Positions 13,440 through 30,372 of a DNA stretch of 59,184 nt are shown here, piece after piece (the stretch's first letter is position 1; the number at the start of each line of letters is the position of its first letter). Under the pieces are notes generated by a model that saw only the letters and a list, made by a program, of their open reading frames with translations, had not been told where the DNA came from and ran no database searches. The position numbers and the translations under genes were made by a program. This DNA comes from an uncultured Thiohalocapsa sp. (lineage in GTDB: Bacteria; Pseudomonadota; Gammaproteobacteria; Chromatiales; Chromatiaceae). The stretch covers positions 1-59,184 of the forward strand of contig NZ_CAJXYK010000040.1 of NCBI RefSeq assembly GCF_913063425.1. Direction: 5' to 3'.

Positions 13440-13832
13440 TTAGTTGACTGCGGTGGGTGGGCGCTCTGCGAGCAGGGCCTCAATGCGCGCGAGGCGCTCC
13501 TCCAGTGCCGGGGTGTCGCTGGGCTGCGTCGGCTGGGGCTGGTCGGCGCGCTCCGGAGCGGGGGCGTCGGCCGCCGCCGCCGGGGGTCTGCCGCGGGCAC
13601 TGGTGTCGAAGGCGGGATTGCCGCGCCACCAGTCGAGGCCCATCTCCACCGCCTTGTCCACGGAGCAAATCAGCAGGCGGATCTCCAGCGACAGCAGCTC
13701 CACCTCCACGAGCTTGACGCGGATGTCGCCGGCGACGACGACGCCCTTGTCGAGCACGCGCTCAAGCAGGTCCGCGACCGTGGTGCTGCTGGTGGAATGG
13801 GACGGGCTTCTTTGGTTGACGGTGACGGCCAT
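13440..13832 (-). CDS. GvpA-family minor gas vesicle protein (GvpJ/GvpM-type)
   Basis: Residues ~15-70 match the gas vesicle GvpA/J/M fold: VADLLERVLDKGVVVAGDIRVKLVEVELLSLEIRLLICSVDKAVEMG. A ~60-residue Ala/Pro-rich tail follows, ending in a helix (LEERLARIEALLAERPP). The tail separates it from the main shell protein GvpA, so it is probably a minor component that nucleates or caps vesicles. It is the last gene of the cluster, 33 bp after gvpK. The choice between J and M names cannot be made by eye. Confidence 0.85.
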   Translation of the reverse strand: MAVTVNQRSPSHSTSSTTVADLLERVLDKGVVVAGDIRVKLVEVELLSLEIRLLICSVDKAVEMGLDWWRGNPAFDTSARGRPPAAAADAPAPERADQPQPTQPSDTPALEERLARIEALLAERPPTAVN

Positions 13833-13865
13833 GGGGGCTCTCCGGGTGACCGGCCGCGGGCGGCT

Positions 13866-14231
13866 TTAGAGCAGCCGGCCCAGGGGGCCGAGGTCGATGT
13901 TCAGGTCTTCGTCCGCGAGGCCGAAGACCTCTTGGACGCGCTTCAGCTCCTCGGCCTGGCGCATCAGGGTGGTGCCGAGGCGCTCGATCTCCTCATCACT
14001 CAGGCTGCCTGAGTCCATGCGGGCGATGGCCTGGCGCTCCAGCAGCTCATGCAGCAGTTTCACCAAAGTCAGCACGAGCTGTGCCAGGCCGTTGCGCACG
14101 CGCTCGCCGTCGATATCCACCCGGGCACCGGGTGCCGTTGCGGCGGCCGGCGGGCGCCCCGGCAGGCCATCCGCCGGTCGGGCGGCGTCGGCGGTGGCCC
14201 GCGGGTCGAGGTACCGAATGTCATTGCTCAT
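13866..14231 (-). CDS. gvpK: Gas vesicle protein GvpK
   Basis: The 121-residue protein carries the strongly conserved GvpK core: RVDIDGERVRNGLAQLVLTLVKLLHELLERQAIARMDSGSL, then DEEIERLGTTLMRQAEEL and the ending DLNIDLGPLGRLL. GvpK is an accessory protein needed for vesicle formation in several bacteria. Its first 40 residues are an Ala/Pro-rich lead. The start overlaps the end of the upstream GvpJ-type gene by 11 bp, indicating co-translation. Confidence 0.95.
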   Translation of the reverse strand: MSNDIRYLDPRATADAARPADGLPGRPPAAATAPGARVDIDGERVRNGLAQLVLTLVKLLHELLERQAIARMDSGSLSDEEIERLGTTLMRQAEELKRVQEVFGLADEDLNIDLGPLGRLL

Positions 14232-14460
14232 GATTCGCCATCTCCCGCTGCATTTGGTCCTGCAGGCGCCGCCCGGTCTCCACCGAGGTCACCAGGGCCT
14301 GCAGACTGAGATAGACAAGGTCCACGTCGGCGACGCTGATGGTGATCTCCGCCGCCACCACGGCCCCCTTGTTGAGCACCCGGTCCAGCGCCTCGCACAG
14401 CGAGATGTGCTGGCTCTCGGGGCAGGCCTCCGGCGCAGCCGTCGCGGTGTCGTGACTCAT
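14221..14460 (-). CDS. GvpJ/GvpS-type gas vesicle protein
   Basis: A 79-residue GvpA-family protein with SLCEALDRVLNKGAVVAAEITISVADVDLVYLSLQALVTSVE. This VADVDLVYL version is typical of the minor J/S type found beside gvpK. It shares an ATGA overlap with the ArsA-like ATPase gene upstream and overlaps gvpK downstream, so the three are likely translated as a coupled block. Confidence 0.85.
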   Translation of the reverse strand: MSHDTATAAPEACPESQHISLCEALDRVLNKGAVVAAEITISVADVDLVYLSLQALVTSVETGRRLQDQMQREMANHEQ

Positions 14461-16469
14461 CGGCCAAGCTCCAGGGTCCGTTGCCCGTAGAAGGCCGCGC
14501 CCAGGGCCGCCAGGTCATCCAGGCCCGCGGGCTCGTGCTGGCGATAGACCAGGGTGCGGTGCATGGGTGCGAAGCGCGCCGCGGCCGCCACCTGCTCGGA
14601 CTCCCGCCGGCGCAGCGCGCTGCAGAGCGCGCAGCGGCAGTCCGCAGGGCCGGGCGGCGTCAGCTGATTCAGGGCCAGCACCGGGGCGGCGATGGACAGG
14701 TCCGCGAGCGCCGCCGTCAGGTCCCCGGTCTCGGCAAGCCCCAGCGCCGTGGCCACGCTGACCACCTGCACCCGGGTGCGATGGGGGTCCGCCAGCAGCG
14801 CCCGCAGCCGCTTGGTGGCGCGGGACAGGGCCACCAGCTGCTCGGAGAGCCGCGGCAGGCGCAGGATGTCGCGATACTTGAGCAACAGCTGGAAAAAGAG
14901 CTTGAGCCAGTCGCCGATGAGCTCCGGCAGCTCCAGCAGGCGCAGCAGATGGCCGCTGGGGGCGGCGTCGAGCACGATCAGGTCGTAGCGGTCGGCGTCC
15001 AGGTGGTCGATGGCGGTGGTGAGCGCCATCACCTCGTCCAGGCCCGGCGGGGCCAGGTCCAGCAGCCGCTCCATCACCTGGCGGTCGAAGGTGATGTCCA
15101 GACTGCCCAGGTGATTCATCAGGAGCCGCTCCAGCTCGTCACGGTAGGCGGCGCGGATGGCGGCGAAGGCGCCTTCGGCGTCCACCTCCTGGGCCTCCAG
15201 GCCCGGGCGCACCAGGGTCGGCTCGCTGCCCACCGGGCGGCCGAGGGCATCCGCCAGGGAATGGGCCGGGTCGGTGGAGAAGAGCAGCAGCCGTTGTGCC
15301 GGGCGCACGCGGTTCAGGTGCAGGGCCGTGGCGCAGGCGAGCGTGGACTTGCCCACGCCCCCCTTGCCGGCGAAGACCAGGAGCCGCAGCCCGGGGGGCG
15401 GCAGCGGTGCCGCATGCGCCACCTGCACCGGCAGCGTCCACGGCGCTGTTGCCGCCGCCGACGCGGCTGCGGGGCGTGCGGCCTCGGGCACCGTTGTGGC
15501 CTGCTCGAAGAGCCCGGCAAGGTCCGCGCCGCGGGGCTCGTCCGCCAGCAGCGGCAGCCCCAGCAGTCGGGCGTCGGGCGCCAGCGCCCGCAGCGGCGCG
15601 AGCGCTGCGATCTGACGCTCGCGCTCGGCGGCGCACACCGGGCACAGGTCGTGCGCCGCTGCCTCAGGGCCGTCCCCGGCGGCGTGCTCGCAGGGGGAAG
15701 CGGGCACCAGGCGGTTCACCACCAGGTCGGACACCGGGATGGCCTGCGCGCCGAGCAGGCCAAGCAGATCCTGGGTCTCGGCAACGCTCATGCGCTCGGC
15801 CAAGGTCACGGGCACGAAGCGGCAGCGCTCGGCGTCGGTGAGACGCTCCACCAGGGTCCCGCGCGAGCGGTCCAGGCGGGCGAGGAAGTCATCGAGATGG
15901 TCGGGGCGGGCATCCCCACCAAAGCGCCGGCGCAGGTAGCGGTGCTTGGCGAGCAGGGCATCCAGCGCATCCAGCCAGCGCCGCACCAGCCCGGGCATGG
16001 CGAGCAGCCGCAGGGCGTGGCCGGTGGGCGCCGTGTCCACGACGATGCAGGCGTAGCGGGCCTGCTCGATCCAATCCGCCAGCTCCAGATAGGCGGCCAG
16101 CTCGTCCAGCCCGGGCAGCGCGACCTCCAGCAGCGCATCGATGTCGTCGTTGTCGAGCAGGGTGCCGCGCTGCGAGATCTCGCGCAGCAGTGCGCGGTGC
16201 CGCTCGCGGAACGCCCTGAGGGAGGCATCGGCGTCCAGCTGCAGCACCTCCAGGTTGCCGGGGGCGTGCAGGCTAGCCAGTGCGTCGCTCACGGAATGGG
16301 CAGGATCCGTGGACAGCAGCAGGATCGGCTCGTCGGGCCGACGGCGCGCGATGGCGAACGCGGCGGCACAGGCACAGCTGGTCTTGCCGACGCCGCCCTT
16401 GCCACCGAAGAACAGCAGCATCAGCCCGGCAGCCTCCAGGAAGCCGGGCACAGGGGCGGGGGTGGACAT
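14457..16469 (-). CDS. Tandem ArsA/Get3-like ATPase of the gas vesicle cluster
   Basis: The 670-residue protein is two ArsA-type ATPase halves. Half 1 has GGKGGVGKT at residues 22-30 and DTAPTGHALRLL. Half 2 has GKGGVGKST near 365-374 and DAAPSGHLLRLLELP. Each half ends with a Cys pair (LCPVC, CRCALC) like the zinc CxxC of Get3. Family members are arsenite-pump ATPases or tail-anchored-protein chaperones. No arsB/arsC is present and the gene is locked between gvpG and a GvpJ-type gene, so a chaperone role for hydrophobic Gvp subunits is the reasonable inference. It occupies the place of GvpW in clusters I recall, but identity is not proven. Confidence 0.85.
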   Translation of the reverse strand: MSTPAPVPGFLEAAGLMLLFFGGKGGVGKTSCACAAAFAIARRRPDEPILLLSTDPAHSVSDALASLHAPGNLEVLQLDADASLRAFRERHRALLREISQRGTLLDNDDIDALLEVALPGLDELAAYLELADWIEQARYACIVVDTAPTGHALRLLAMPGLVRRWLDALDALLAKHRYLRRRFGGDARPDHLDDFLARLDRSRGTLVERLTDAERCRFVPVTLAERMSVAETQDLLGLLGAQAIPVSDLVVNRLVPASPCEHAAGDGPEAAAHDLCPVCAAERERQIAALAPLRALAPDARLLGLPLLADEPRGADLAGLFEQATTVPEAARPAAASAAATAPWTLPVQVAHAAPLPPPGLRLLVFAGKGGVGKSTLACATALHLNRVRPAQRLLLFSTDPAHSLADALGRPVGSEPTLVRPGLEAQEVDAEGAFAAIRAAYRDELERLLMNHLGSLDITFDRQVMERLLDLAPPGLDEVMALTTAIDHLDADRYDLIVLDAAPSGHLLRLLELPELIGDWLKLFFQLLLKYRDILRLPRLSEQLVALSRATKRLRALLADPHRTRVQVVSVATALGLAETGDLTAALADLSIAAPVLALNQLTPPGPADCRCALCSALRRRESEQVAAAARFAPMHRTLVYRQHEPAGLDDLAALGAAFYGQRTLELGR

Positions 16470-16496
16470 GATGTCACCGGCTGGACAGCTGCGCGC

Positions 16497-16901
16497 TCAG
16501 TGCCGCTCGGACTCCAGGACCCGCCGGGCGTCGGCGTCGGCATGCGCCTGGGTGCCGGCGTCGGCATCGGCGTCGGCATCGGCGAGGAGCCAGCGGCGGC
16601 TGCCGGCGTCGTCGCCGGCCTCGTCGGCCGCTTCTTCCGCGTCGGCGTCCTCCGCGTCGTCCTCGTCCCCCAGCCCCTGTGCTTCCAGCTCGTCGAGCCG
16701 GTCCAGCAGCGCGGACTCGCGCCGGTCGAACTCGGCGTCGTCAATCTGCTCCGTCTCGAGCATCATGTAGAGGTCCGTCAGCTCGTTGCGGATGCGCTCC
16801 GCCTCGCCTTCGAGCTCGTCCACGGCGGTGTTGTGGATCTCTTCGAAGACCCAGAGCAGCCCTTTGTACGGGGACAGCAGAATGTCGTCGATCAGCAGCA
16901 T
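16497..16901 (-). CDS. gvpG: Gas vesicle protein GvpG
   Basis: The first ~75 residues match GvpG closely: MLLIDDILLSPYKGLLWVFEEIHNTA, then ELTDLYMMLETEQIDDAEFDRRESALLDRLDEL. GvpG is a small helical accessory protein needed for vesicle assembly. Here it carries an unusual ~60-residue acidic, low-complexity tail (EDDAEDADAEEAADEA, then DADADADAG), coded by a GGCATCGGCGTC-type microsatellite. Family members normally stop near 80-90 residues, so the tail is a local expansion. It lies ~100 bp downstream of the GvpF/L gene. Confidence 0.93.
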   Translation of the reverse strand: MLLIDDILLSPYKGLLWVFEEIHNTAVDELEGEAERIRNELTDLYMMLETEQIDDAEFDRRESALLDRLDELEAQGLGDEDDAEDADAEEAADEAGDDAGSRRWLLADADADADAGTQAHADADARRVLESERH

Positions 16902-16999
16902 GCGCGTCTCCTCAGCGGGGCCGCCCGGCCCGCCGCATGCGCTCGCACGCGGCGGTGTCTGCCGGGGCCGCCCGGGTGTATCTGGGCTTTGGTGTGGTG

Positions 17000-17800
17000 T
17001 CAGCCGGCCTCTTCCTCGGCCGCTGCGGTTGCCGGTGTCTTCAGATCCAGCTCGACGAAGTTGTGCGGCGCCCAGGGGCCGTTGTAGTCGAACAGATAGT
17101 CGTTGTTGAACAGTTTGGAGGCCTCGAACACGCCCCGCTCGAACTCGGCCTGGGCGTCCCGCTCGATGAGACAGGCCAGATTCATGACCTCCTTCTCCTT
17201 CTTGGTGGGGTTGGACATCACCTCTTCGCAGTGATTGCGCATCACCTCCATGACCTGCTCCGTGTACTGCTCCCGGGCCTCGTTCACCAGCCGGTCGAAC
17301 AGGCGGCCGACCTCGATCTTCTCGTCGCGCGGCGCGTTGTCGCCGAGGGCCAGGAGCCGATCGCGCGCCTCCTGAAGCAGCGGGTGCATGCCGACGAAGT
17401 ACTCGTAGATGTTGGCCACGTCCCAGGATACGCGCAGACCCATTTCGATACGGTGACGCACGCGGTAGAGCTGCTCGGTGATGGCCTCGTTGTTGACCCG
17501 CAGCAGGTCGCGCACCGCCTCGGCATTGGCGGCCACCACGCCGAACCGCATGGGCAGCACCGAGCCCACCTCCAGCAGGTGCGCGAGCACGGCGCGGTGG
17601 GCCATCAGATTGCGCCGCTCGGGCCGGACCTTTGGGCTGTGGATGTCGCTGACCACCGCCGAGACATCGCCGGTGCTGATGCTGTAGACGGTATTGCCGC
17701 CGATTCCCTGGACCTTGTAGATCTGCTCGTCGCTGCCCTCGCCGAAGTCCGTGAGGGCATAGATGAGCTTGCCGCGGGAGCTGTTGGTTGTGCGGGGCAT
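17000..17800 (-). CDS. GvpF/GvpL family gas vesicle protein
   Basis: The 266-residue protein shows the GvpF/L pattern: KLIYALTDFG, VSAVVSDI, MAHRAVLAHLLEVGSVLPMRFGVVA, then EMGLRVSWDV, and a C-terminal GPWAPHNFVELDL. GvpF/L proteins are minor, GvpA-interacting assembly factors. ATG 17800 is preceded by AAGGAG at a 7-nt spacing. The frame stays open upstream through a 12-bp repeat region, but the strong ribosome site supports 17800. It is the first of three GvpF/L-type genes in the cluster. Confidence 0.92.
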   Translation of the reverse strand: MPRTTNSSRGKLIYALTDFGEGSDEQIYKVQGIGGNTVYSISTGDVSAVVSDIHSPKVRPERRNLMAHRAVLAHLLEVGSVLPMRFGVVAANAEAVRDLLRVNNEAITEQLYRVRHRIEMGLRVSWDVANIYEYFVGMHPLLQEARDRLLALGDNAPRDEKIEVGRLFDRLVNEAREQYTEQVMEVMRNHCEEVMSNPTKKEKEVMNLACLIERDAQAEFERGVFEASKLFNNDYLFDYNGPWAPHNFVELDLKTPATAAAEEEAG

Positions 17801-17884
17801 GGGACTCTCCTTCAGTGCGTCGGCGCCGGCCGGCGGAACGGACGGCGCTGCGCCACGGGCATGGTTTGGCTTATGTCTGTACAG

Positions 17885-18085
17885 GTCTCTGGGCCGGTCT
17901 CTGTGCCCATCTCCGGACCCCATTGCTGGGCCGGTGTCTGAGACCATCTCTGAGCCCGTCTCTGGGCGTATCTCTGGGCGCATCTCTGGGCGCATCTCTG
18001 GGCGTATCCCCGGGCCCATCGCTGGGCCCACTTCTAAGCCCTTCTCTGGGCGGACATCTGGGCCGGCATCTGGGCCGGCCTGCTG
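17885..18085. repeat. Degenerate 12-bp minisatellite
   Basis: About fifteen units related to CTCTGGGCGCAT, with CCGGG and GTCTGAG variants, fill the gap between the small basic protein gene and GvpF/L. The unit length is a multiple of three, and the stretch is in frame with GvpF/L on the minus strand (it would read RPEMRPEIRPE). It could be an N-terminal extension or a spacer. Confidence 0.8.
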
Positions 18086-18107
18086 CCGGCGCCGACGGCA
18101 GCGGGTG

Positions 18108-18335
18108 TCAGTCCGCCAGCACGCGCAACGCATGCCGCAGCCGGCGTGTGCGCAGCTGCAGGCGGCGGCGCACGGCCGGTGCCGCGGCGGCATGCAGACG
18201 CCGCTGCCGCCGCTGCTCGGCGAGCATGCGGGCGCCGGCCGCATGCCGGCGGCGATCCCGCCCGGTGACCGTGAGCAGCGCATCGGCGCCTTTGACGTGC
18301 AGGCGGGTGCGCAGGTGTTGTTGTGTCAGAATCAT
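18108..18335 (-). CDS. Small Arg-rich protein of the gas vesicle cluster
   Basis: A 75-residue, very basic protein begins MILTQQHLRTRLHVKGADALLTVTGRDRRRH and ends with an Arg/Leu/Ala-rich helix. The start at 18335 has a strong GGGGAGG ribosome site 6 nt away, which supports it as real despite its size. It lies 13 bp after the coiled-coil protein gene. No family was recognised; charge and context would suit binding to acidic Gvp proteins or RNA, but that is speculation. Confidence 0.55.
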   Translation of the reverse strand: MILTQQHLRTRLHVKGADALLTVTGRDRRRHAAGARMLAEQRRQRRLHAAAAPAVRRRLQLRTRRLRHALRVLAD

Positions 18336-18348
18336 GCTGGGCCTCCCC

Positions 18349-18771
18349 TCAGTAGCGGATGCGCAGTCCGCTGCGTGGACTGGGCTCGCTGGGTTTGGCC
18401 CGTGCCACACCGCCACGCAGGGTGTCCGTGGCCCCCCCCACGGAGCCCTGCGGCGCGGTGCGGCGACGGGTTTGTTGCGCCGTGGCGGGCACAGCGGCGC
18501 CGTCCTCCTTGCGGGCGCGCTCGGACTGGGTGACTTCCACCTCGCCACGCAGCCGTGCCATTTCGGCGTCGATCTCGCCGATACGGCGGTCGATCTCCGC
18601 GATGCGGCGCATCGCGGCTTCGCGCTCCTGGCTGCGGCGCAGCCGCTCCAGCTCCAGGGCGCCCATCTCGAAGTAGTTGGTGTAGCCCCGCTGCGCTGCA
18701 TCGCTGCTCTTGCCCGCGAGGGTGCGGATGTCCGTCAGGCTGCGCGCCGGGCGATTGCTCTTGGTGCTCAT
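18349..18771 (-). CDS. Coiled-coil protein of the gas vesicle cluster (GvpV-position)
   Basis: The 140-residue protein has a central helix with clear heptad character (residues ~38-85: LELERLRRSQEREAAMRR, IGEIDAEMARLRGEVEV) flanked by basic, flexible ends. Its start overlaps the gvpN stop by ATGA, so the two are co-translated. Order A-C-N-(this)-F-G corresponds, from memory, to gvpV in the Serratia cluster, but similarity to GvpV could not be tested. Confidence 0.65.
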   Translation of the reverse strand: MSTKSNRPARSLTDIRTLAGKSSDAAQRGYTNYFEMGALELERLRRSQEREAAMRRIAEIDRRIGEIDAEMARLRGEVEVTQSERARKEDGAAVPATAQQTRRRTAPQGSVGGATDTLRGGVARAKPSEPSPRSGLRIRY

Positions 18772-19859
18772 CGTGGGTTCTCCGCGGCCTCTTGCGTCCC
18801 GAGGTTCTCGATTCCGGCCAGCTTCGGCGTGGTCGGCTTGCCCTCACCGCCGGCGGTCAGGGCAGACGCCGGCATCGCCTTGGGCGTGCCTGCGCTGCGC
18901 GGTCGCGGCCGCTCGGCGCTGCTGGGCGGACACACCTGACGGATGATGCCGTCGATGAGCTCTTGGTAGACGGAGCGGCCGTCATGGCGCACCTTGGCGG
19001 TCTCCATGCTCAGCACGTCGTAGCAGATGTGATGGAAGAGCATGTCCCCGGCGCGGGCCTTGCCGGTGCCGTTGGCGAGCACCTTGGCGATGGCGATGCC
19101 GGCCCTGAGCGTGGGCTGGGACTTGTTCTCGTTGTTGCCGCGCAGTTCCCGCACGATGTCCACGATGTAACCGGCCTCGCGCTCGTCCAGACCCGACTTG
19201 GCCTTGGTGATGGCAAGCTCCGTGTTGCGGTCCGGCGGGTTCAGCCGGATGGTGATCATGCGGTCGAGCAGCGCGTCCTGGGTCTTGTGGGTGCCCGCGT
19301 ACTCCTCCGGGTTGGAGGTGAAGATGGCGCGGAAGCTCTCGGCCACGTCCAGATAGCCCTCGCCCGCCGTACGCAGACCCGGAAGGTTCAGGATGCCTTC
19401 GGAGAGCACCGACAGCAGCACATTGTTGGCCTCGGGCCGGGAGCGGTTGAATTCGTCGTAGATCAGGGTGTCGCCGTTGCGGCAGGCGGTGGTGAGGCGG
19501 TCGTCCACCCAGACCTGGCGCATCTCCTCTTCGGTGCGCAGCACCGAGTGGATGTAGTTATCCACCACTTTGCTGCGGCGGTAACCGGCGTCGTTGGTGC
19601 CGATGAGGTCAGACACCTCGAACTCGTCGTTGCCGTGGATCAGTGTCACAGGCTGGCCCCAGAGCGCCGCCAGGTGAAACGCGAGCGTGGTCTTGCCGGT
19701 GCCGGACGGCCCGGCAAGGTGCACGGGATAGCCGGCGCGCAGATAAGACAGCGCGCGCTCGGCGACGGTGGCGATGTAGCTTGTGGTGACGAAGGAATCG
19801 CTCGCCTCGGGGACGACGCTGTCGCCGGCGGCGGCGGCGTTGCTGTCGGTGGCGGTCAT
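18768..19859 (-). CDS. gvpN: Gas vesicle AAA+ ATPase GvpN
   Basis: The 363-residue MoxR/NorQ-type AAA+ protein has Walker A GPSGTGKTT (residues 50-58), Walker B TLIYDEFNRSRPE, and sensor IFTSNPEEYAGTHKTQDALLDRM. These are GvpN hallmarks. GvpN enlarges or remodels vesicles and is needed for full gas vesicle size in several organisms. Beyond residue ~300 a Pro/Ala-rich tail is extra. ATG 19859 gives the usual N-terminus just ahead of the P-loop domain. ATGA overlap with the next gene indicates translational coupling. Confidence 0.95.
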   Translation of the reverse strand: MTATDSNAAAAGDSVVPEASDSFVTTSYIATVAERALSYLRAGYPVHLAGPSGTGKTTLAFHLAALWGQPVTLIHGNDEFEVSDLIGTNDAGYRRSKVVDNYIHSVLRTEEEMRQVWVDDRLTTACRNGDTLIYDEFNRSRPEANNVLLSVLSEGILNLPGLRTAGEGYLDVAESFRAIFTSNPEEYAGTHKTQDALLDRMITIRLNPPDRNTELAITKAKSGLDEREAGYIVDIVRELRGNNENKSQPTLRAGIAIAKVLANGTGKARAGDMLFHHICYDVLSMETAKVRHDGRSVYQELIDGIIRQVCPPSSAERPRPRSAGTPKAMPASALTAGGEGKPTTPKLAGIENLGTQEAAENPR

Positions 19860-20232
19860 GGATGGGTCCTCGCGTGTGCGTGCCCCCTGCGCGCTGAGGC
19901 GCGGGCTGGGCATGGGCCGGGCATGTACTCGGGTTGTTGTCTGTGCTCGCAGCGCGGCATCTGTTATGGCTGGCGTCGGTGCATCGCAGCGCCCCCGAGG
20001 CACGGGCTGTGGTCAGAACCGGTGGCGTGGGCTGAGCCCATGCTCCGGTCAAAAAGCCGGGCCGTGACCCTCCGATCGCGGCCCGTGGGGCGCTGTGCGG
20101 CGCGTCTGGCGCCGGGGGAGATGGCGCGCGACGCCGATGCTGTCCGTCACATCAGTCCGCGGCGTCCTGCCCGCGCCGATGAAATGCCCGTGCTCCGGAA
20201 ACCCCCGAAGCGAACGCGCTGCTTGCCAGCCG
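19860..20232. other. 373-bp gap between the GvpC-like gene and gvpN
   Basis: No gene is supported here. The sequence is GC-rich with several short palindromes but no convincing -24/-12 or -35/-10 promoter. gvpN and later genes may depend on readthrough from the gvpA promoter or on an unrecognised promoter. Confidence 0.4.
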
Positions 20233-21090
20233 TCAGGTCTCCGCTTTGTTGCCTTGCTTCTTGGCTGCGCGCTTGCCGCCTTTGTCGCCGTCCATGTCCT
20301 TGTCCATGGCAGGCGTCATACCGACGGCGGCGTTGCCACCGCTGTCGGCATCGGCCGCCTTGGCGACGGGGGGCGGCTGCTGCTCGGCAGGCCTGGCCGC
20401 GGCGGGCTGCGTCTTCGGGGCGGGCTGGCTCGGCTTCGGCTTCGCGGCCGGCTTGGGCGCCACCCGCATACCGCCGTCGAACAGCGCCCGAATGCCCGCA
20501 AGGTCCGCGGACACATCGCTTTGCAGCGTGCGCACCTGGGAGCTGATGTCGGCGATGAAGTCGCGCCGGGCATCGGCGTCCGCTTCGGTCTGCTCCGCGT
20601 GGGTCTTGCGGAACTCGCCGAGCATGTTCGCCACCTCGTGCGCCTTGTCGGCGACGAAGCCCAAGCGCACCCGCGCCTCCTGCTCGGAGGCCGCCGCAAA
20701 CTCGTCGCGGAAGGCCGCCATCTGCTCTTGGAAGTCCCCCAGCTTGGCGCGGATGTCCTGGACGCGGTCCGCCACCTCGTGCTGACGCGCCGCGGCGTCG
20801 GCCCGGGCCGTCTCCATGCGGTCGTCGTGGACACGCTCCATCATTGCCCCCACCTCCCTGGTGAGGTCCTGCACGCCCTGCACGATGTTGCCGATGAAGG
20901 CACCGCGTGCGGCCTGGTCCTGGCCGAACTGGACCTGCCGGGCTGACGCGAAGCCGCCGATCATGTCGGCAACGCCGCGGCCGAGCTCGGCCATCTCGTC
21001 GGCTCGTGCCTGACCTGCGGCACGCCGGGCCTCGTGGCCACGGTCCATGTCCCCGCGCAGACGCGTCATATCGTCTAGAATTTTCCCCAT
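20233..21090 (-). CDS. gvpC: GvpC-like gas vesicle shell-associated protein
   Basis: The 285-residue, largely helical protein lies directly downstream of gvpA, where gvpC is expected. Residues ~55-195 fall into about four repeats of 33-40 residues with a pattern (R)xxFIxxIxxxVxxL (FIGNIVQGVQDL, EVADRVQDIRAKL, FVADKAHEVANML, FIADISSQVRTL). GvpC binds the outside of the GvpA ribs and strengthens the vesicle. The C-terminus is a Pro/Ala/Lys-rich tail. Assignment rests on position and repeat architecture; primary sequence in GvpC is poorly conserved. Confidence 0.65.
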   Translation of the reverse strand: MGKILDDMTRLRGDMDRGHEARRAAGQARADEMAELGRGVADMIGGFASARQVQFGQDQAARGAFIGNIVQGVQDLTREVGAMMERVHDDRMETARADAAARQHEVADRVQDIRAKLGDFQEQMAAFRDEFAAASEQEARVRLGFVADKAHEVANMLGEFRKTHAEQTEADADARRDFIADISSQVRTLQSDVSADLAGIRALFDGGMRVAPKPAAKPKPSQPAPKTQPAAARPAEQQPPPVAKAADADSGGNAAVGMTPAMDKDMDGDKGGKRAAKKQGNKAET

Positions 21091-21183: not shown

Positions 21184-21402
21184 TCAGGCAGGAGCCGCGG
21201 CGCTGGAGGTCAGACCGATGGCCTCGGCATACTTGAGGTACGTCTCGACGGAGGCCACCACCACGCGGGCCTCAACCGAGAGCAGCTCGATGCCGACCAG
21301 GGAGACCTTCGCCCACGCATCGATCACGATGCCCTTGTCGAGCACGCGGTCAACGACTTCGGCCAGGCTTGAGGAATCGGTCGAGTTTGCGACTTTTGCC
21401 AT
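21184..21402 (-). CDS. gvpA: Major gas vesicle shell protein GvpA
   Basis: The 72-residue protein has the almost invariant GvpA core: [52 protein letters not shown]. GvpA forms the ribs of the gas-filled, buoyancy-giving vesicle. A good ribosome site (AAGGAG, 7 nt) precedes ATG 21402. It has its own sigma-54 promoter, a hairpin at the mRNA 5' end and another just after the stop, all consistent with very high, regulated expression. Confidence 0.98.
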
Positions 21403-21442: not shown

Positions 21443-21463
21443 GACGGTGCTGCCAGCACCGTC
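21443..21463 (-). promoter_or_regulatory. 5'-terminal hairpin of the gvpA leader
   Basis: Perfect 9-bp inverted repeat GACGGTGCT/AGCACCGTC with a 3-nt loop. If transcription starts about 12 nt after the -12 GC of the sigma-54 promoter, at ~21464, this hairpin occupies about +2 to +22 and would shield the 5' end from RNases. Confidence 0.6.
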
Positions 21464-21475: not shown

Positions 21476-21490
21476 GCAAAGGGGATGCCA
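21476..21490 (-). promoter_or_regulatory. Sigma-54 promoter of gvpA
   Basis: TGGCATCCCCTTTGC on the minus strand matches the -24/-12 consensus TGGCACRNNNNTTGC at all key positions, with GG and GC exactly 10 nt apart. It lies 74 bp upstream of gvpA. An NtrC-type activator is encoded upstream in the same cluster. Confidence 0.8.
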
Positions 21491-21609
21491 AGCTCGCTGA
21501 CGCCGACCGCGGCCAAGGAAGGCCCTTTATTCCGTCCATCGGGGGAAGAATTGTCGTGGACATAGGTGTTTTCCCCAGCAGGGTACCCCAAAGATAGGTC
21601 TCGGCGTCC

Positions 21610-21637
21610 ATGGAAAGATTTCCATAAGTATGGAAAT
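21610..21637. promoter_or_regulatory. Palindromic upstream activator site candidate
   Basis: ATGGAAAGATTTCCAT is a perfect 16-bp palindrome, followed 4 bp later by a half site ATGGAAAT. It lies about 120 bp upstream of the -24 element, the usual distance for enhancer sites of sigma-54 activators, in the only sizeable gap upstream of gvpA. Confidence 0.55.
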
Positions 21638-21643
21638 GCATCC

Positions 21644-22024
21644 CTACTCCGTCACCTGCGGTGAGATGCAGCGCAGAATCTCGGCATGGGTGAAAGGCTT
21701 GGAGATGAAGCCGTCGATGTGTCCTGCCGCCAGCGCCCGGGCGATGTCCGGGTCATCGCGGTAGAAATAGGCAGAGATGAGCAGCACCACCGCACCGGGG
21801 TTGCGGGTACGCGCCTCCGCGGCGAGGGCGAGCCCGTCCCAGTCCTGAAGCTTGGCGTCCAGCAGGATGTGCGTGAAGGCCTTGCGCCCCAGCGCTGCCA
21901 GCGCCTCGGCCCCGCTCTGCACCGCGCAGGCGGGGTAGCCCTTGGTGTGGAACAGCCAGGACAGCGCCCAGCACACCTCGGGCTCGTCGTCCACCACCAG
22001 AATCTCCGGCGTTGTCCTCGCCAT
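21644..22024 (-). CDS. Single-domain response regulator (CheY-like)
   Basis: This 126-residue receiver-only protein has an acidic pocket DDE at residues 12-14, phospho-acceptor Asp56 (HILLDAKLQDWDG), and SAYFYRD and KPF at the conserved Thr/Ser and Lys positions. ATG 22024 gives the standard N-terminus (TPEILVVDDEPEV). It lies 49 bp after the histidine kinase gene and just before the gvpA regulatory region, so it probably relays or drains phosphate from that kinase. It has no DNA-binding output and matches the position of gvrC in the Serratia cluster, from memory. Confidence 0.85.
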   Translation of the reverse strand: MARTTPEILVVDDEPEVCWALSWLFHTKGYPACAVQSGAEALAALGRKAFTHILLDAKLQDWDGLALAAEARTRNPGAVVLLISAYFYRDDPDIARALAAGHIDGFISKPFTHAEILRCISPQVTE

Positions 22025-22073: not shown

Positions 22074-23534
22074 CTACAGCAACGGCAGCCGTACGCTGAA
22101 GCGGCTGCCCTCGTCCACACGGCTCTCCACACTGATGCTGCCGAGGTGGCGCTGCACGATGGAGTAGGAAATGGACAGGCCGAGCCCCGTCCCCCAGCCG
22201 GGGCTGGAGCCCGTGTGGAAGGGGTCGAAGATGCGCTCCAGCTCCCCCTCGCTGATGCCGACGCCCGTGTCCGCCACCGCCACCCAAACCTCGCCGTCCG
22301 CCACGAAGAGGTCCACGGTGAGATCCCCGCCGTCCGGCATGGCCTTGATGGCGTTGAGCGCCAGGTTCATGAACACCTGCTGCAGCAGCGAGGACACCCC
22401 GCGCACCAGCACGGGCTGCTCCGGCAGGTGCTGCCGCACGCGGATCTTCTGCACCCGCGCCTGATTCTCGATGAGGGTGAGGGTTTCGCGCAGCACCGCC
22501 ACCAGGTCCAGCTCGGTCATGTCCTCCTGCGCGGACGGGCGCGCGAAGCGCAGCAGATTCTCGATGATGTCGGACGCCTTGCGCATACCGTTCTGGATCT
22601 TCTCGGCGCACTCCCGGCGGAAGTCCGCCGGCAGGTCGTCTTCCATCAGAAACTGCGCCGCCGATGAGCACACCGCGAGCGGATTGCGGACCTCATGGGC
22701 GATGCCGCCGGCCATGACGCCGAGCGCCGCGAGCTTGTGGGACTGGCGCAGCTGGTGCTCCAGCTTGCGCCGCTCGGTGAGGTCGCGGCCGACGGCGACG
22801 GCGCCGATGATGGCGCCGTGGTCGTCCTTCATGGGCGAGAACAGCCAGGACACGAGGATGGGCTCGCACCCCGACGGCACCAGCCGGCATTCGCAGGTGC
22901 GCGGGCCATTGCCGGCCGTCAGCGTCTGCAGCAGCACCCGGCGGGAGTCCCACTGTGCCGGGGCCTCGCAGATCTCCCACAGGTAGCGGCCGCGCACATC
23001 CACCGCCGTCAGGCCCGAGAGGGCCTCCGCGGCGCTGTTCCAGGTCAGGATGCGCCCTTCGGTGTCCACGGACAGCACCATGTCGCTGGCGCTCTCCACC
23101 ACCGAGGCCAGATGGCGCTCCACCCGGCGTACTTCCTCCGACAGGCGCACCTGCTCGGTGACATCCTCCAGGAACAACATCACCGTCTCGGTACCCTTCG
23201 GCCCGCCCAGCGGCACCACCGAGTAGTAGTAGATGCGCAGCGGAATGCCCGGTGCCCGATAGGTGATGCGCTGCCCGCGCACCGGCTGGCCGTCGCGAAA
23301 CACATTGCGGATGCGCGCGGCCATGTCCGTCCGCTCCAGGATCACCGTCGGGAAGACATCGGCCAGGCGCCGCCCGATGGTCTGGGTCTCGCTCAACTGG
23401 CTCTTGGCCAGAAAGTTCCGGTTGACACAGGTGATATGCAGGGCCTCGTCCACCAACAGCACGGACGAGGGAATGGCGTCCAGCAACTGGCGGAAGGCGG
23501 CGGTGCCGCGCTTGCTGCCGCAAAGGGTAGTCAT
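22074..23534 (-). CDS. PAS-domain sensor histidine kinase
   Basis: The 486-residue protein has no transmembrane segment. It has PAS 1 (residues ~12-130, LLDAIPSSVLLVDEALHITCVNRNF), PAS 2 (~140-255, VVESASDMVLSVDTEGRILTWNSAA), a HisKA domain with His280 (AGGIAHEVRNPL), and an HATPase with N and G boxes (NLALNAIKAMP, DTGVGI, GLGLSISYSI). This is the NtrB-like layout that partners NtrC-type regulators. The start 23534 overlaps the preceding GvpF/L stop by ATGA. Its likely partners are the sigma-54 regulator at 27940 and the receiver at 21644. Confidence 0.92.
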   Translation of the reverse strand: MTTLCGSKRGTAAFRQLLDAIPSSVLLVDEALHITCVNRNFLAKSQLSETQTIGRRLADVFPTVILERTDMAARIRNVFRDGQPVRGQRITYRAPGIPLRIYYYSVVPLGGPKGTETVMLFLEDVTEQVRLSEEVRRVERHLASVVESASDMVLSVDTEGRILTWNSAAEALSGLTAVDVRGRYLWEICEAPAQWDSRRVLLQTLTAGNGPRTCECRLVPSGCEPILVSWLFSPMKDDHGAIIGAVAVGRDLTERRKLEHQLRQSHKLAALGVMAGGIAHEVRNPLAVCSSAAQFLMEDDLPADFRRECAEKIQNGMRKASDIIENLLRFARPSAQEDMTELDLVAVLRETLTLIENQARVQKIRVRQHLPEQPVLVRGVSSLLQQVFMNLALNAIKAMPDGGDLTVDLFVADGEVWVAVADTGVGISEGELERIFDPFHTGSSPGWGTGLGLSISYSIVQRHLGSISVESRVDEGSRFSVRLPLL

Positions 23535-24442
23535 TGAGTCGTATCTGTATCTGTGGGGCTCGTATCGGGGACGCATGTCTCTGAAGGGCTCGTTTCCGGG
23601 GCGCTCGTATCTGGGGGGCTCGTATCAGGGGCGCTCGCATCTGAGGGGGGGCGTATTTGGGGGGGCGTATCTGGGGGGCTCGTATCGGGAGAGCGCGCAG
23701 CCGCGGAGGCCGTATCCTGAGGGCGCGTATCCGGGGTGGCGGTGTCTGCGTCGGTGCCGTCCGTGCCGCCGGCGAAGCTGTGCGGCGGCCATGGACCGCT
23801 GGTGAGCGGCGCACCGGCCGCCGTGGTGAGCCTGCCCGCCGCCACTGCCGCCGCGAGCCGTTGGCGGAAGGCCGCGAGCCGCGGGCGCGGCACCAGGTAA
23901 TGTGCCGAGAGCCTCCGTCCGCCGGCGAACCAGCCCTGCTCCCGGCGCGTGTCGCGGTAGAGTCCGGCGAGGTCGGCGTCGAGGCGCTCCAGCGCGGTCT
24001 CGGCGGCGGTCGCGGCCTGAAGCTGGGCGCGCCGACGCAGCAGATAATCACGGCCGCTCGCCGTTGCCCCCGGGCCTGCGGCGCCGGCGGCGGTACCCGC
24101 CGGCGGCTCCGGCAGGGGCAGGCGCACGCCCATTTCCACGCAATCCGCAAGCGCCGCGAGGACGCACCGGTAGCGCTCGGCTTCGGCGCGCAGGTGCGCG
24201 GTGACCGCCGCCGTGTCCGCCAAGCGGCTGCCCCAGCGCATGGGCACCACATCGAGCCGGGCGTGGTAATGGGCGACGACCTCGCCGAAGGCGAGCATGG
24301 CGGCCACATCCTCATGGGCGGGCGCCGGCGCCACCAGCGCCGCCAGGCTGCCCGCCTCCACCCAGCGCAGTCCGGCCGGCGCCGTGGGCGGCGGTGACGC
24401 CGCCCGCCGCAGGTCCGAGGCCGCGCAGACGCAGTAGAGCAT
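23531..24442 (-). CDS. GvpF/GvpL family protein with repetitive tail
   Basis: The 303-residue protein begins MLYCVCAA at 24442, 5 bp after the preceding gene. The core shows GvpF/L features: SLAALVAP, AMLAFGEVVAHYHARLDVVPMRWG and the closing GPWPPHSFAGG near residue 230. After that comes a ~65-residue tail of PDTSxPDTS-type pentapeptide repeats, coded by a 15-bp minisatellite (about 23560-23720). Such a tail is not normal for the family. ATGA overlap links it to the histidine kinase gene. Confidence 0.85.
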   Translation of the reverse strand: MLYCVCAASDLRRAASPPPTAPAGLRWVEAGSLAALVAPAPAHEDVAAMLAFGEVVAHYHARLDVVPMRWGSRLADTAAVTAHLRAEAERYRCVLAALADCVEMGVRLPLPEPPAGTAAGAAGPGATASGRDYLLRRRAQLQAATAAETALERLDADLAGLYRDTRREQGWFAGGRRLSAHYLVPRPRLAAFRQRLAAAVAAGRLTTAAGAPLTSGPWPPHSFAGGTDGTDADTATPDTRPQDTASAAARSPDTSPPDTPPQIRPPSDASAPDTSPPDTSAPETSPSETCVPDTSPTDTDTTQ

Positions 24443-24447
24443 GAGGG

Positions 24448-25266
24448 TCAAGGCGTCCCACCGGTGAAGCTGTAGCCCGGCCACGGTCCTTTGAATTCCA
24501 GGGTCAGGCCGCATTCGGCGAGCTCCGGGGCCGCCGCCGTCAGGACTTCTTCGACCGCGGCACGCGCCGCGTCCGGCACCAGCAGCGCCCAGTTGAAGGC
24601 CAGCGCCTGACCGCTTGGAATGCGGCGCTCCACCAAACCGCGACACTGTGGTCGCAGCGCGTCGGCAAGCGCCGCTGCACGCCGTGCCGCCCAGGCCTCA
24701 AGGTCCGGTGTGAGCGCCCGGCGCAGCCGCTGCTCCTCCAGGTGGCGGCGCCCGGCAGCGGCGGGCGGGACGAAGCGGCCGGCAGCGATGGCCTCGGCCA
24801 CCCGCGCATCCAGCGCGCGGGCGCGATCCAGCTGCCCCTGCACCGCCCATTCCGCGCAGCCGGCGAGCCGGTCGAGGGCCGCAAGGATGTCAGTGCGGCG
24901 GCTCGCCATCTCGGCCTCCAGCACCGCAACCGACGAAAACAGGGTCGCGAAGGGGAGCGGGAACACGGTGGTCGCGGCGAGTGCGGCGTCCAGGACCGTC
25001 TGGTGGCGCAGGGCGCGCGGGCCGACCCAGCCGATGTCCGCCAGGTTGGCGACACCCTGCTCGCCCTCGTAGTCGGCGCGTCGTACCGGGCTCACCAACG
25101 CCGTGAGCCCGGCGTGGCGATGCACCGACAGGCCGCCGCCGTCCACGGCGGGCGCTTCGGGCGGCAGGCCGGCGGCGTCCGCCGGCGCGAAGCAGTACAG
25201 GTACAGCGCCATCGCATCGTCGCGGGCGGCGCCGTCGGCTTGCGCCGCCGAGCCGGCCGCACTCAT
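24448..25266 (-). CDS. GvpF/GvpL family gas vesicle protein
   Basis: The 272-residue protein has an N-terminal ALYLYCFAPADAAGL strand and LTALVSPVRRADYEGE, then ALRHQTVLDAALAATTVFPLPFATLF. It has a middle helical part and a C-terminal LTLEFKGPWPGYSFTG, all typical of GvpF/L. The ~18-residue lead before MALYLYC could be dispensable; ATG at that Met is an alternative start. Its start overlaps the CDC48-like ATPase stop by ATGA. Confidence 0.9.
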   Translation of the reverse strand: MSAAGSAAQADGAARDDAMALYLYCFAPADAAGLPPEAPAVDGGGLSVHRHAGLTALVSPVRRADYEGEQGVANLADIGWVGPRALRHQTVLDAALAATTVFPLPFATLFSSVAVLEAEMASRRTDILAALDRLAGCAEWAVQGQLDRARALDARVAEAIAAGRFVPPAAAGRRHLEEQRLRRALTPDLEAWAARRAAALADALRPQCRGLVERRIPSGQALAFNWALLVPDAARAAVEEVLTAAAPELAECGLTLEFKGPWPGYSFTGGTP

Positions 25267-27431
25267 ACCAGCCCCGGCCCGAGCACCTCGGTGAGGGCCT
25301 GCTCGAAGTCGGCACGCGTGAGCGCCACCGCCGGCAGGGCCTCGGCATCGAGGGACTGCGGGCGACCGTCGGCACCGGCGACCACGCGGCGGATGGCGAA
25401 GAGCGCCGCACGGTTGCAGATGGCCGCGAGCTCGGCGCCGCTCGCCCCCTCGGTGCGGGCCGCGAGGTCCGCCGCGTCCACCACCTCGGCGCCGGGCTTG
25501 CCGCGCAGGTGCACGGCGAGGATCTCGCCGCGGTCCTGCTCGCTCGGCAGCGGCAGCTCGATGACCTCGTCGAAACGCCCGGGGCGGAGCATGGCGGCGT
25601 CGATGAGGTCGGCGCGGTTGGTGGCGCCGAGCACGAACACGCCCTTCAGCTCCTCCAGGCCGTCCATCTCCGCCAGGAACTGGCTCAGCACCCGCTCGGA
25701 GACATGCGAGTCGCTGGCACCGGCGCTGCGTGCGGGCACCACGGCATCCACCTCGTCCAGGAAGATGATGCAGGGTGCCGCTTGGCGGGCCTTGTGGAAG
25801 ACCTCGCGCACACCGGCTTCCGATTCACCGACGAAGCGCGACATCAGCTCCGGCCCCTTGACCGCAATGACATTGACGCCGCTCTCGTTGGCCACGGCCT
25901 TGGCGATCAGAGTCTTACCGATGCCGGGAGGCCCCGCCAGCAGCAGCCCCTTGGGCGGCGCCACACCGGCCTGCTCGAACAGCTGCGGATACTTGAGCGG
26001 CCATTCCACGGCCTCCACCAGGCGCTGGCGTACACCGGACAGGCCGCCCACATCGTCCCAGCCCACATCCGGCACCTCCACGAAGACCTCGCGGATGGCC
26101 GAGGGCTCCACCTCCCGGTAGGCGGTCAGGAAGTCCTCCATGCCGATGGTGACGGCGGCAAGCTCGTCGAAGGGCAGGTCTTCCAGCGATGCGCCGATGT
26201 TCGGCAGCAGCCGGCGCAGCGTGCCCATGGCCGCCTCGCGGCACAGGGCCTCCAGGTCGGCGCCGACATAGCCGTGGGTGATCTCGGCGAGGTGGTCCAG
26301 CGAGACATCCTCGTTGAGCGGCATGCCGCGCGAGTGGATGTCCAGGATCTCGCGGCGCCCGTCGCGGTCCGGGATGGGAATGGCGATCTCGCGGTCGAAG
26401 CGCCCGGGCCGGCGCAGGGCCGGGTCGATGGCGTTGGGCAGGTTGGTGGCGGCGATGACGATGAGGTTCTGCCGCCGGTTGAGGCCGTCCATCAGCGCCA
26501 GCAGCTGCGCCACCACGCGCTTCTCGACATCGCCCACCACCTTGTCCCGGCGCGGCGCAATGGCGTCGATCTCGTCCAGGAAGATGATGCTCGGCCCCTT
26601 GCGCGACGCCTCGTCGAAGATCTTGCGCAGGTGCGCCTCGCTCTCGCCGTAGAACTTGTGGATGATCTCGGGGCCCGAGACGGTGTAGAAGGCGGCGTTG
26701 GCCTCCTGGGCGATGATCCGCGCAATCAGGGTCTTACCGCAGCCGGGCGGCCCGTGCAGCAGCACGCCCTTGGGGGCGTCTATCCCTAAGCGCTCGAACA
26801 CCTGGGGATGGCGCAGCGGCAGCTCGATCATCTCGCGGATGCGCTGCACCTGGTGGCGCAGCCCGCCGACATCCTCATACGTCATGGTGCCGCCGCCGCG
26901 CTGGGCCGACCCGGCGCCGCCACCGGCGGCCTGGGCCTTGCCGATGACCAGGGCAGTAGTGGGGTTGATGACCACGGCGCCGCCGGGGCTCGTCTCTTCC
27001 ACCCGAAAATCCGCGCTGCGGCTGCCGAACAGGGACGCCCGCACCAGATCGCCCTTCACCACCGGCACGCCGTCCAGCAGGCTGCCGATGTAGGCCATGT
27101 CGCGCTTGCCCGGGGTCACCGTGGTGGGCGTGAGGGTGATGCGCGCTGCGGGCTGGTAGGCGCAGGGCGCAACCTCGGCCTTCTCATCCACGCCGATGCC
27201 GGCATTTTTGCGCGTGATACCGTCCAGTTGGACGCAGTCCTTGCCGCGCATGTCCTGGTAGGCCGGCATCACCTTGGCCACACTGGCGCGCTTGCCACGC
27301 ACCAGCACCACGTCACCGAGCGCCAGACCAAGCCGCTGGATGTCCGCCGGGTCCAGGCGCGCATAGCCGCGGCCCGCGTCCTTCGCCATACCCTCGGCGA
27401 CCTTGAGCTTGACAGTTTCCGTCTCAGACAT
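25263..27431 (-). CDS. CDC48/VAT-type tandem AAA+ ATPase of the gas vesicle cluster
   Basis: The 722-residue protein has a double-psi-barrel N-domain (LKVAEGMAKDAGRGYARLDP) and two AAA+ modules: D1 with GPPGCGKTL (~224-232) and IIFLDEIDAIAPRR, D2 with GPPGIGKTL (~497-505) and IIFLDEVDAVVPAR. Arg fingers follow in PNAIDPALRRPGRFD and ADLIDAAMLRPGRFD. This is the archaeal VAT/eukaryotic p97 design, which unfolds or extracts proteins. In bacteria it is rare, and here it is fixed between Hsp20 and GvpF/L genes. A role in remodelling Gvp assemblies is inferred. It occupies the GvpZ place of Serratia as I recall it. Confidence 0.9.
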   Translation of the reverse strand: MSETETVKLKVAEGMAKDAGRGYARLDPADIQRLGLALGDVVLVRGKRASVAKVMPAYQDMRGKDCVQLDGITRKNAGIGVDEKAEVAPCAYQPAARITLTPTTVTPGKRDMAYIGSLLDGVPVVKGDLVRASLFGSRSADFRVEETSPGGAVVINPTTALVIGKAQAAGGGAGSAQRGGGTMTYEDVGGLRHQVQRIREMIELPLRHPQVFERLGIDAPKGVLLHGPPGCGKTLIARIIAQEANAAFYTVSGPEIIHKFYGESEAHLRKIFDEASRKGPSIIFLDEIDAIAPRRDKVVGDVEKRVVAQLLALMDGLNRRQNLIVIAATNLPNAIDPALRRPGRFDREIAIPIPDRDGRREILDIHSRGMPLNEDVSLDHLAEITHGYVGADLEALCREAAMGTLRRLLPNIGASLEDLPFDELAAVTIGMEDFLTAYREVEPSAIREVFVEVPDVGWDDVGGLSGVRQRLVEAVEWPLKYPQLFEQAGVAPPKGLLLAGPPGIGKTLIAKAVANESGVNVIAVKGPELMSRFVGESEAGVREVFHKARQAAPCIIFLDEVDAVVPARSAGASDSHVSERVLSQFLAEMDGLEELKGVFVLGATNRADLIDAAMLRPGRFDEVIELPLPSEQDRGEILAVHLRGKPGAEVVDAADLAARTEGASGAELAAICNRAALFAIRRVVAGADGRPQSLDAEALPAVALTRADFEQALTEVLGPGLV

Positions 27432-27446: not shown

Positions 27447-27939
27447 TCAGACCAGCTTCACTTCTAGGATGCCGTTACGGCAGCTGTACGTCATGCCCTC
27501 GGCAGCGAAGCTGCGCGGCAGCAGAACCTCCTTGCGGTACTTCTTGTCGCCCCGCGCGGCCTGGATGTCGAGCACGTCCCCGTGCAGCTGGAGCTGCACG
27601 TCCTCGTCAGCGATGCCGGGCAGCTCCGCCACCACCTGCACATGGGCGTCCTCTTCGAACACGTCCACCATGGGCTCGGTGACCTCCTGCACCGTGGATG
27701 CGCCCGTCTCCTCGTCGCGGCGGATGTTGCCGAAGGGCTCCACCTTCGGCGTGGACTCGCCATCCTCGCCGAGCCCCACCTTGACGGTGAAGCCGTAGAC
27801 GCCCTTGACCTCGCGCCCACCGCTGGTCTTGGACTCGATGACGCCTTCGCGCTTGAGCTGCTCGCCCGTCTCGGCGAGGTCGCCGAGCTTCTCCACCAGA
27901 TCGCCGAGTCCGCGCAGGATGCCTTCGATGCCGCCGCTG

Positions 27940-27959
<20 letters not shown>
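27447..27959 (-). CDS. gvpH: Hsp20/alpha-crystallin gas vesicle protein (GvpH-type)
   Basis: The 170-residue protein ends in an alpha-crystallin-like domain (VDVFEEDAHVQVVAELPGIADEDVQLQLHGDVLDIQAA, then RKEVLLP and NGILEVKLV). A ~90-residue lead has IEGILRGLGDLVEKLGDLAE, the N-terminal helix typical of gas-vesicle Hsp20 proteins. Start is GTG 27959 with AGGAG 9 nt upstream; the start overlaps the regulator gene's end by 20 bp. It probably chaperones Gvp proteins. Confidence 0.85.
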
Positions 27960-29370
<1,411 letters not shown>

Positions 29371-29375
29371 GGCGC

Positions 29376-29969: not shown

Positions 29970-30372
29970 CAGCACCCCCCAAGCCTTTACACGCGTTTTT
30001 ATAGTGCCTATAGTTTCGGTGATGAGCGGCATCTTTTCAACGACAATTGACTAGACGTGTACCTTCCCTATGTGATAAGCAGACGGGCTGATTAATGGTT
30101 GTGATCGAGCTCACAGTTCCTTCCCGGCATGCGCGCCCGTGCCCTGAACGGCCATCCGACCGCCGCGCCGACGCTGCTCCAGCTCCCGCTTCCAGCCCGC
30201 CCGTCCAATCCTTTGCACGCAGCTGCGGCGCCGCTCCCATAAGCCCATCGTTGCGCTTGGTTATACTCTAGGTGATCCGCTGCCTGATCCCAGCCGCCCC
30301 CCTGGCTGGGGCGGCATCCGTCCTGTGCCGGGCCGCCGTGGCGCCCGCACCCCAGCCAGACGAGGACACCCC
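29970..30372. other. Divergent intergenic region
   Basis: This region lies between the first gas-vesicle-region gene (minus) and the muramidase gene (plus). It is AT-richer than its surroundings near 29990-30100 and holds the Crp-like palindrome at 30100-30115. A minus-strand TATAAA near 30000 and TATAGG near 30010 are weak -10 candidates. No coding sequence is supported. Confidence 0.5.
30100..30115. promoter_or_regulatory. Crp/Vfr-like binding site
   Basis: TGTGATCGAGCTCACA is a perfect TGTGA-N6-TCACA palindrome, the textbook Crp consensus. It lies ~130 bp upstream of the first gas-vesicle-region gene and ~257 bp upstream of the muramidase gene. A half site TGTGATAAGC starts at 30071. Confidence 0.6.

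Follow-up and report, generated by a model that had tools for sequence, protein, structure and literature searches.

The closest described counterpart of the locus considered here is the gas-vesicle cluster of Serratia sp. ATCC 39006, in which the start of gvpA1 was mapped by 5′RACE with a σ54 consensus site upstream, and in which full gvpA1 expression needs each of gvrA, gvrB, and gvrC (PMC4982088). A Serratia rpoN mutant is reported to have no gas vesicles and reduced gvpA1 transcription, with gvrA transcription unchanged (PMC11778176, a 2025 paper citing a thesis); low oxygen is a reported cue in Serratia (PMC11778176), which also has quorum-sensing control through SmaR. The idea of σ54/gvr control is thus not new, because it is already in print for this enterobacterium. 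GvrA and GvrC homologues have been noted in Thiodictyon syntrophicum (PMC5944118), and an inverted operon order has been reported for Psychromonas and Desulfomonile (PMC4982088). Haloarchaea likewise encode regulators of gvpA, GvpD and GvpE, within the cluster; the Halobacterium plasmid examined, on which both are annotated, differs from the locus described below in having no σ54 element before gvpA (best match 6/10).

The stretch analyzed here (the window) comprises all 59,184 nucleotides of contig NZ_CAJXYK010000040.1 from an uncultured Thiohalocapsa sp., a purple sulfur bacterium; motifs, their positions, spacing, rarity and conservation, protein domains and rpoN were computed for it and for related genomes. 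Its gas-vesicle cluster contains the Serratia-type gene set as listed in PMC4982088 (gvrA, gvrB, gvrC, gvpH, gvpZ, and two gvpF genes) and, like that of Serratia, combines an NtrC-family GvrA with GvrB, GvrC, and a σ54 element before gvpA (gvpA1 in Serratia). Unlike in Serratia, the gvr operon precedes the gvpA operon, and the two have the same orientation. The genes are as follows.

13440..21090, minus strand: rest of the gvpA operon (Pfam, PF00741 matches, homologous order in relatives), with a gvpC-like coiled coil, gvpN, gvpV-like, gvpF, gvpG, an ArsA-type ATPase, two more gvpA-like genes, and gvpK; gvpC, gvpN, and gvpV are named by position
21190..21402, minus strand: gvpA, the main gas-vesicle structural protein (Pfam Gas_vesicle PF00741, 60.5 bits)
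21644..22024, minus strand: gvrC-like receiver-only response regulator (Response_reg PF00072 in ORF 21644-22132; gene order as in Serratia, PMC4982088)
22074..23576, minus strand: gvrB-like PAS histidine kinase (PAS, HisKA, and HATPase_c domains)
23531..24646, minus strand: gvpF/L gene, called F3 by position (GvpL_GvpF PF06386)
24448..25266, minus strand: gvpF/L gene, called F2 by position (GvpL_GvpF PF06386)
25263..27431, minus strand: CDC48-type AAA ATPase, gvpZ by position (TIGR01243 CDC48, 867.8 bits, above the cut-off of 802.65)
27447..27959, minus strand: gvpH (GvpH PF05455, 35.2 bits, cut-off 22)
27940..29379, minus strand: gvrA-like NtrC-family activator (Sigma54_activat 218.8 bits, Response_reg, HTH_8, GAYTGA)
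29376..30032, minus strand: gvpY-like first gene of the gvr operon, named by position (a homologue precedes gvrA in many loci; the protein matched no Pfam or NCBIfam family)

Several other features were observed in the window. Arrays of 81-82-bp repeats with inverted arms GTGGGAGCGGC ... GCCGCTCCCAC lie at 449-812, 10346-10868, and 11429-11751, and imperfect tandem repeats of 15, 30, and 60 bp occupy 23547-23736, at the end of the gvpF/L gene adjoining gvrB. A perfect CRP-like palindrome (TGTGA-N6-TCACA) is present at 30100-30115, upstream of the gvpY-gvrA operon; as a shared feature it was set aside, with a site of at least 8/10 before the gvr operon in none of 32 other loci.

The activator encoded at 27940-29379 has the domains of an NtrC-type enhancer-binding protein (a receiver, the AAA+ σ54 interaction domain, an AAA lid, and a Fis-type helix-turn-helix), with the loop in the variant form GAYTGA. 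GAFTGA is the commoner form in such activators. Although GvrA resembles NtrC and AtoC in this architecture, and its best NCBIfam matches are ntrC (TIGR01818, 419.9 of 558.6 bits) and AtoC (390.7 of 714), it falls below both curated cut-offs and has a different predicted DNA site; a nitrogen-type NtrB/NtrC pair proper was rejected on the TIGR01818 score. An earlier note on this DNA had described the regulators as an NtrC-type activator and an NtrB-like kinase: the domains bear out the former, and the latter is too loose a term for a kinase whose best NCBIfam match is AtoS, at 277.7 bits with a cut-off of 646. The genome has rpoN in one place, on another contig (PF04552, 231.8 bits), and GvrA is the only protein with a Pfam-recognised DNA-binding domain among the cluster proteins scanned. 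Whole-protein similarity to GvrA was rejected as a marker of gas-vesicle clusters: six of the seven other genomes of the class with a match at 1e-100 or better have no gvpA match, and their GvrA-like proteins are therefore probably other activators.

The promoter predicted for gvpA consists of the following two features.

21476..21490, minus strand (read 21490 to 21476): TGGCATCCCCTTTGC, -24/-12 element of the σ54 promoter before gvpA, 9/10, conserved in relatives
21464, minus strand: transcription start (+1) predicted by setting the C of the GC element at -12; leader stems of relatives cluster at the same predicted point

The element has nine of the ten fixed bases of TGGCAC-N5-TTGC and, as the earlier note had it, the right GG-to-GC spacing (GG-N10-GC), and lies on the same strand as gvpA (ATG at 21402-21400) with 73 nt from its last C to the ATG, one less than the 74 bp given there. 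Considered within the window alone the motif was judged not to be significant, since four one-mismatch matches occur and 5.28 are expected; over the 5.9-Mb genome, TGGCAY-N5-TTGC has 25 matches on the two strands vs 5 for a reversed control pattern. The element stands out from chance in its context because relatives have it at the same position ahead of gvpA. Loci were fetched via GvpA from species genomes, as the best 80 of 410 candidates encoding a relative; with L028 and L030 dropped for too little upstream DNA, 78 related loci and the window gave 79 regions, which were scanned from -230 to -50 before gvpA and compared with 100 shuffles. An element of at least 9/10 was found in 48/79 regions (shuffle mean 0.44, maximum 5) and one of at least 8/10 in 67/79 (mean 7.27, maximum 15), counts that overstate independence because several regions come from one genome or from close kin. 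This was the motif scan of related gvp clusters that the earlier note had proposed as a check, and it came out in favor of the promoter. On the opposite strand, 8 of the 79 regions reached 8/10 and 2 reached 9/10; with other spacers (1-4 and 6-10 bases) at most 18 reached 8/10 and at most 2 reached 9/10. Sites of at least 9/10 occur in Gamma-, Beta-, and Alphaproteobacteria, several former Deltaproteobacteria, and Myxococcales, and also in Acidobacteria, Rokubacteria, Planctomycetota, and Victivallales.

The 79 loci were also sorted by gene neighborhood, with the scan extended to 300 bp upstream and the reach limited by contig ends. Where a homologue of gvrA or gvrB was in reach, at least 8/10 was found in 43/46 loci and at least 9/10 in 33/46; with only other gvp genes in reach, the clusters numbered 7/11 and 2/11, respectively; and where gvpA stood alone, no other core gvp gene being in reach, 19/22 and 15/22. 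The link between promoter and gvrA is not strict, because seven of the eleven clusters without gvrA or gvrB in reach still have an element of at least 8/10. Three loci with gvrA (L015, L047, and L072) have best elements of 6, 7, and 6 of 10 within 300 bp. Two of these, L015 and L072, are acidobacterial gvp clusters in which the element stays at or below 6/10 within 400 bp of gvpA, and L015 has an enhancer dyad (see below) of 14/16 despite the absent -24/-12 element. In a comparison of six named records (few, with an incomplete plasmid gene table), the alphaproteobacterial plasmids of Methylocella tundrae and Methylosinus sp. C49 have best elements of 9/10, at -96 and -89, and a σ54 regulator, a kinase or PAS protein, and a receiver annotated beside gvpA; the best elements of Spartinivicinus ruber, Nostoc sphaeroides, Octadecabacter arcticus, and Halobacterium salinarum are 7, 8, 6, and 6 of 10, and no σ54 regulator is annotated in the stretches fetched for these four (2 kb per side for Nostoc and Halobacterium).

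Further upstream of gvpA lies an inverted repeat that probably anchors GvrA.

21608..21627, minus strand: candidate enhancer dyad for GvrA, TTATGGAAATCTTTCCATGG, 137 bp upstream of -24, 14/16 to CTATGGAA-N4-TTCCATAG
21628..21647, minus strand: second, weaker tandem dyad GTAGGGATGCATTTCCATAC, 12/16, another 20 bp upstream, where it overlaps the end of gvrC

When inverted pairs of five bases were counted in the 79 upstream regions, ATGGA-N6-TCCAT ranked highest, in 22 regions (vs 2 for the best pair in one mononucleotide shuffle), followed by shifted forms of itself. The dyad was then scored as CTATGGAA-N4-TTCCATAG over the 350 bp upstream of -24 with 60 dinucleotide shuffles as the null: at least 12/16 was reached in 46/79 regions (shuffle mean 1.00), which is not a fully independent test because some of these regions had supplied the consensus, and at least 14/16 in 28/79 (shuffle mean 0.00). 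Among these 46 loci a neighboring dyad of at least 10/16 occurs 24 times at a distance of 19-22 bp (about 0.5 in shuffled flanks), with a spacing of exactly 20 bp in 15 of the 24; neighboring dyads 14 bp apart (15 counted vs 1.4) perhaps reflect in part the self-overlap of the palindrome. The exact form ATGGAA-N4-TTCCAT occurs in one place in the 5.9-Mb genome, the dyad at 21608-21627, and ATGGA-N6-TCCAT in two, the second inside a 536-codon ORF on contig 49. Dyads scored below 12/16 in 33/79 regions; one genome with a GvrA relative and a 10/10 promoter (G329) has a dyad of only 10/16, and those of Methylocella and Methylosinus score 9/16 and 11/16. In three loci (L042, L053, and L059) the helix-turn-helix of the cluster activator is clearly divergent, the dyad is at 9-10/16, and the promoter is kept, as expected if the activator reads the dyad, although three cases are few.

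The palindrome TTTCCATACTTATGGAAA, which was the first to draw attention, gave way to the dyad that overlaps it and is found again in relatives. As a general feature, an IHF site lying between the enhancer and the promoter was rejected (3/44 loci, shuffle mean 0.28). Helical phasing of the enhancer with the promoter looked suggestive, with Rayleigh p of about 0.001-0.04 for periods of 10.1-11.0 over 29 distinct offsets, but the claim was dropped because many periods were tried and the loci are related. The proposal of an enhancer dyad also sets the window apart from the account of Serratia: in the main text of PMC4982088 the words enhancer, upstream activat-, and palindrom- are absent, and no GvrA binding site was found in the parts of the gas-vesicle literature covered, which include PMC4982088, PMC11778176, PMC5944118, PMC5601083, and PMC6617781.

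The predicted transcript would begin with a stem-loop.

21443..21463, minus strand: 5′-terminal hairpin of the gvpA leader, GACGGTGCT-GGC-AGCACCGTC (folding; compensatory changes in relatives)

If GC is placed at -12, the first base of the RNA would be 21464 and that of the hairpin +2; counted from +2, the leader is 61 nt long and has a folding energy of -20.2 kcal/mol (z -3.70). Leaders of 69 loci with a promoter of at least 8/10 were surveyed for the longest Watson-Crick stem of at least five pairs, with shuffles as the null. In 28/69 leaders (5.35 in shuffles) the stem begins between -2 and +6 relative to the predicted start, in the numbering of the script, a clustering that also supports this start; such a stem occurs anywhere in the first 60 nt in 39/69 (24.95 in shuffles). 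Nine Chromatiaceae hairpins were aligned and seven of them compared pair by pair, the two left out sharing the stem of L032: three of the eight pairs show whole-pair changes, and two show mismatches (C-A in two sequences, T-T in one). The hairpin may stabilize the gvpA mRNA. Searches of Rfam gave no match at the gathering score for the leaders of six loci, and in 21000-22000 of the window three matches, all far below gathering scores. Separately, eight mostly betaproteobacterial gvpA leaders (L007, L013, L061, L064, L065, L068, L073, and L078) have a common CGAAG/CTTCG stem, without an Rfam match in L007, L064, or L078; in seven of the eight, the longest pairing of the loop involves a G-rich stretch ahead of the ribosome-binding site and may form a pseudoknot.

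The switch at the start of gvpA is very probably a σ54 promoter of the kind shown in Serratia. The conserved element, the activator domains, and rpoN make a σ54 promoter in an NtrC-type, kinase-linked circuit the best reading; of the two-component, enhancer-dependent circuit for buoyancy put forward in the earlier note, the σ54/NtrC-type part stands, and the simple pair gives way to a kinase, a receiver-only protein, and an activator. Neither the receiver-only protein (21644-22024) nor the upstream enhancer dyad appears in that note. From these features we infer binding, phosphorylation, looping, the start site, and RNA stability as follows. The gvpA gene and the structural gas-vesicle genes behind it would be transcribed from 21490-21476, with a start at about 21464, where σ54 RNA polymerase would wait at the promoter in a closed complex. 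Phosphorylation of GvrA would proceed through the PAS kinase GvrB and would also involve the receiver protein GvrC. GvrA oligomers would bind the tandem pair of dyads, which lie 137 and 157 bp ahead of -24, would loop the DNA, and, hydrolyzing ATP, would use the GAYTGA loop to open the complex. The resulting mRNA would begin with the stable hairpin, probably protecting the gvpA message. We hold this explanation as a whole (promoter, GvrA on tandem dyads, looping, and 5′ hairpin) to be highly likely.

The alternative to which we give most weight, although we consider it unlikely, accepts the σ54 promoter as real and has the dyad bound by a different conserved regulator, or GvrA acting without a specific site. 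Several loci with a GvrA relative indeed lack a dyad of at least 12/16, the comparison of helix-turn-helix domains, which includes three clearly divergent cluster activators, is thin, and the choice of GvrA as the dyad's binder is suggested only by co-occurrence. The absence of the dyad and retention of the promoter in those same three loci nevertheless argue for GvrA, as does its position as the sole Pfam-recognised DNA-binding protein among the cluster proteins scanned, and the dyad sits where NtrC-type enhancers sit, often in tandem about 20 bp apart.

Transcription of gvpA mainly by read-through from the upstream gvr operon, or from an unrecognised σ70 promoter, is far less probable. No terminator-like site was found in the 241 bp from the end of gvrC, which is on the same strand, to gvpA, as read-through would have it; against both forms of this account, no σ70-like promoter was found in 21380-21700, the -24/-12 element is conserved, and it is kept at 8/10 or better by most gvpA copies standing alone, which have no other core gvp gene in reach. 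A chance origin of the element has next to nothing in its favor: the one-mismatch count in the window would agree with it, but position-specific conservation and the near absence of matches at other spacings contradict it.

The preferred arrangement, a σ54 promoter with GvrA at an upstream dyad, was followed through the family, in which gvpA is present in 22/194 genomes; the exact dyad ATGGAA-N4-TTCCAT was searched in these 22 and in 20 of the 172 genomes without gvpA. It occurs in 35 places in 15/22 gvpA-bearing genomes and in 3 places in 2/20 of the others, and 28 of the 35 lie 196-649 bp upstream of a gvpA copy. The remaining seven comprise three that stand before a 9/10 σ54 element and a conserved ORF some 80 residues long, one that stands before an 8/10 element with a gvpC-like gene, and three that lack a convincing promoter (among these, one has an 8/10 match on the other side and one falls within an ORF). 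The orphan gvpC-like gene, at 2005-3049 of L137, is followed by a ParA-like gene. The 80-residue hypothetical protein (NZ_CP020372.1 373393-373635, which is 1394-1636 of L160; also in L133, L134, and L139) is encoded behind a gvpA-type enhancer and σ54 cassette; it matched no Pfam or NCBIfam family, and its homologues occur in 7/42 genomes searched, all of one genus. The loci fetched from these genomes (L087-L132) gave 52 upstream regions of gvpA, which were reduced to 46 by dropping six duplicates, in a set that shares several records with the best-80 GvpA set and leaves out some partial gvpA copies. A promoter of at least 8/10 is present in 41 of the 46, a dyad of at least 12/16 in 39, and both in 39; those without both are mainly the second and third copies in a tandem (L091) and copies encoding the more distant GvpA found in one genus (L106-L108). 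In Thiodictyon-type genomes (the genus with most gvpA copies includes Thiodictyon syntrophicum), promoter and dyad occur together at dispersed gvpA copies and at a few other genes.

The promoter is thus known in kind, its type being documented in the literature consulted for one enterobacterium; added here are the candidate GvrA site, the spread of the same promoter across many phyla, and the regulon of dispersed gvpA copies. That spread suggests that enhancer-dependent control is common for gas vesicles of this GvpA type. The proposed site makes the place of GvrA binding directly testable, the dyad motif can be used to find other buoyancy genes, and a defined promoter is on offer for engineered gas vesicles. 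On balance we favor the broader view that a GvrA/σ54 enhancer code, with tandem CTATGGAA-N4-TTCCATAG dyads and a -24/-12 element, may be common to the gas-vesicle clusters of Gammaproteobacteria, desulfobacteria, Acidobacteria, and other phyla, and may act as a portable cassette, which in Thiodictyon-type bacteria would have been copied to gvpA genes dispersed over chromosome and plasmid and would have brought further genes, including the one for the undescribed protein of 80 residues, into a single buoyancy regulon, with structured leaders on many of its transcripts.
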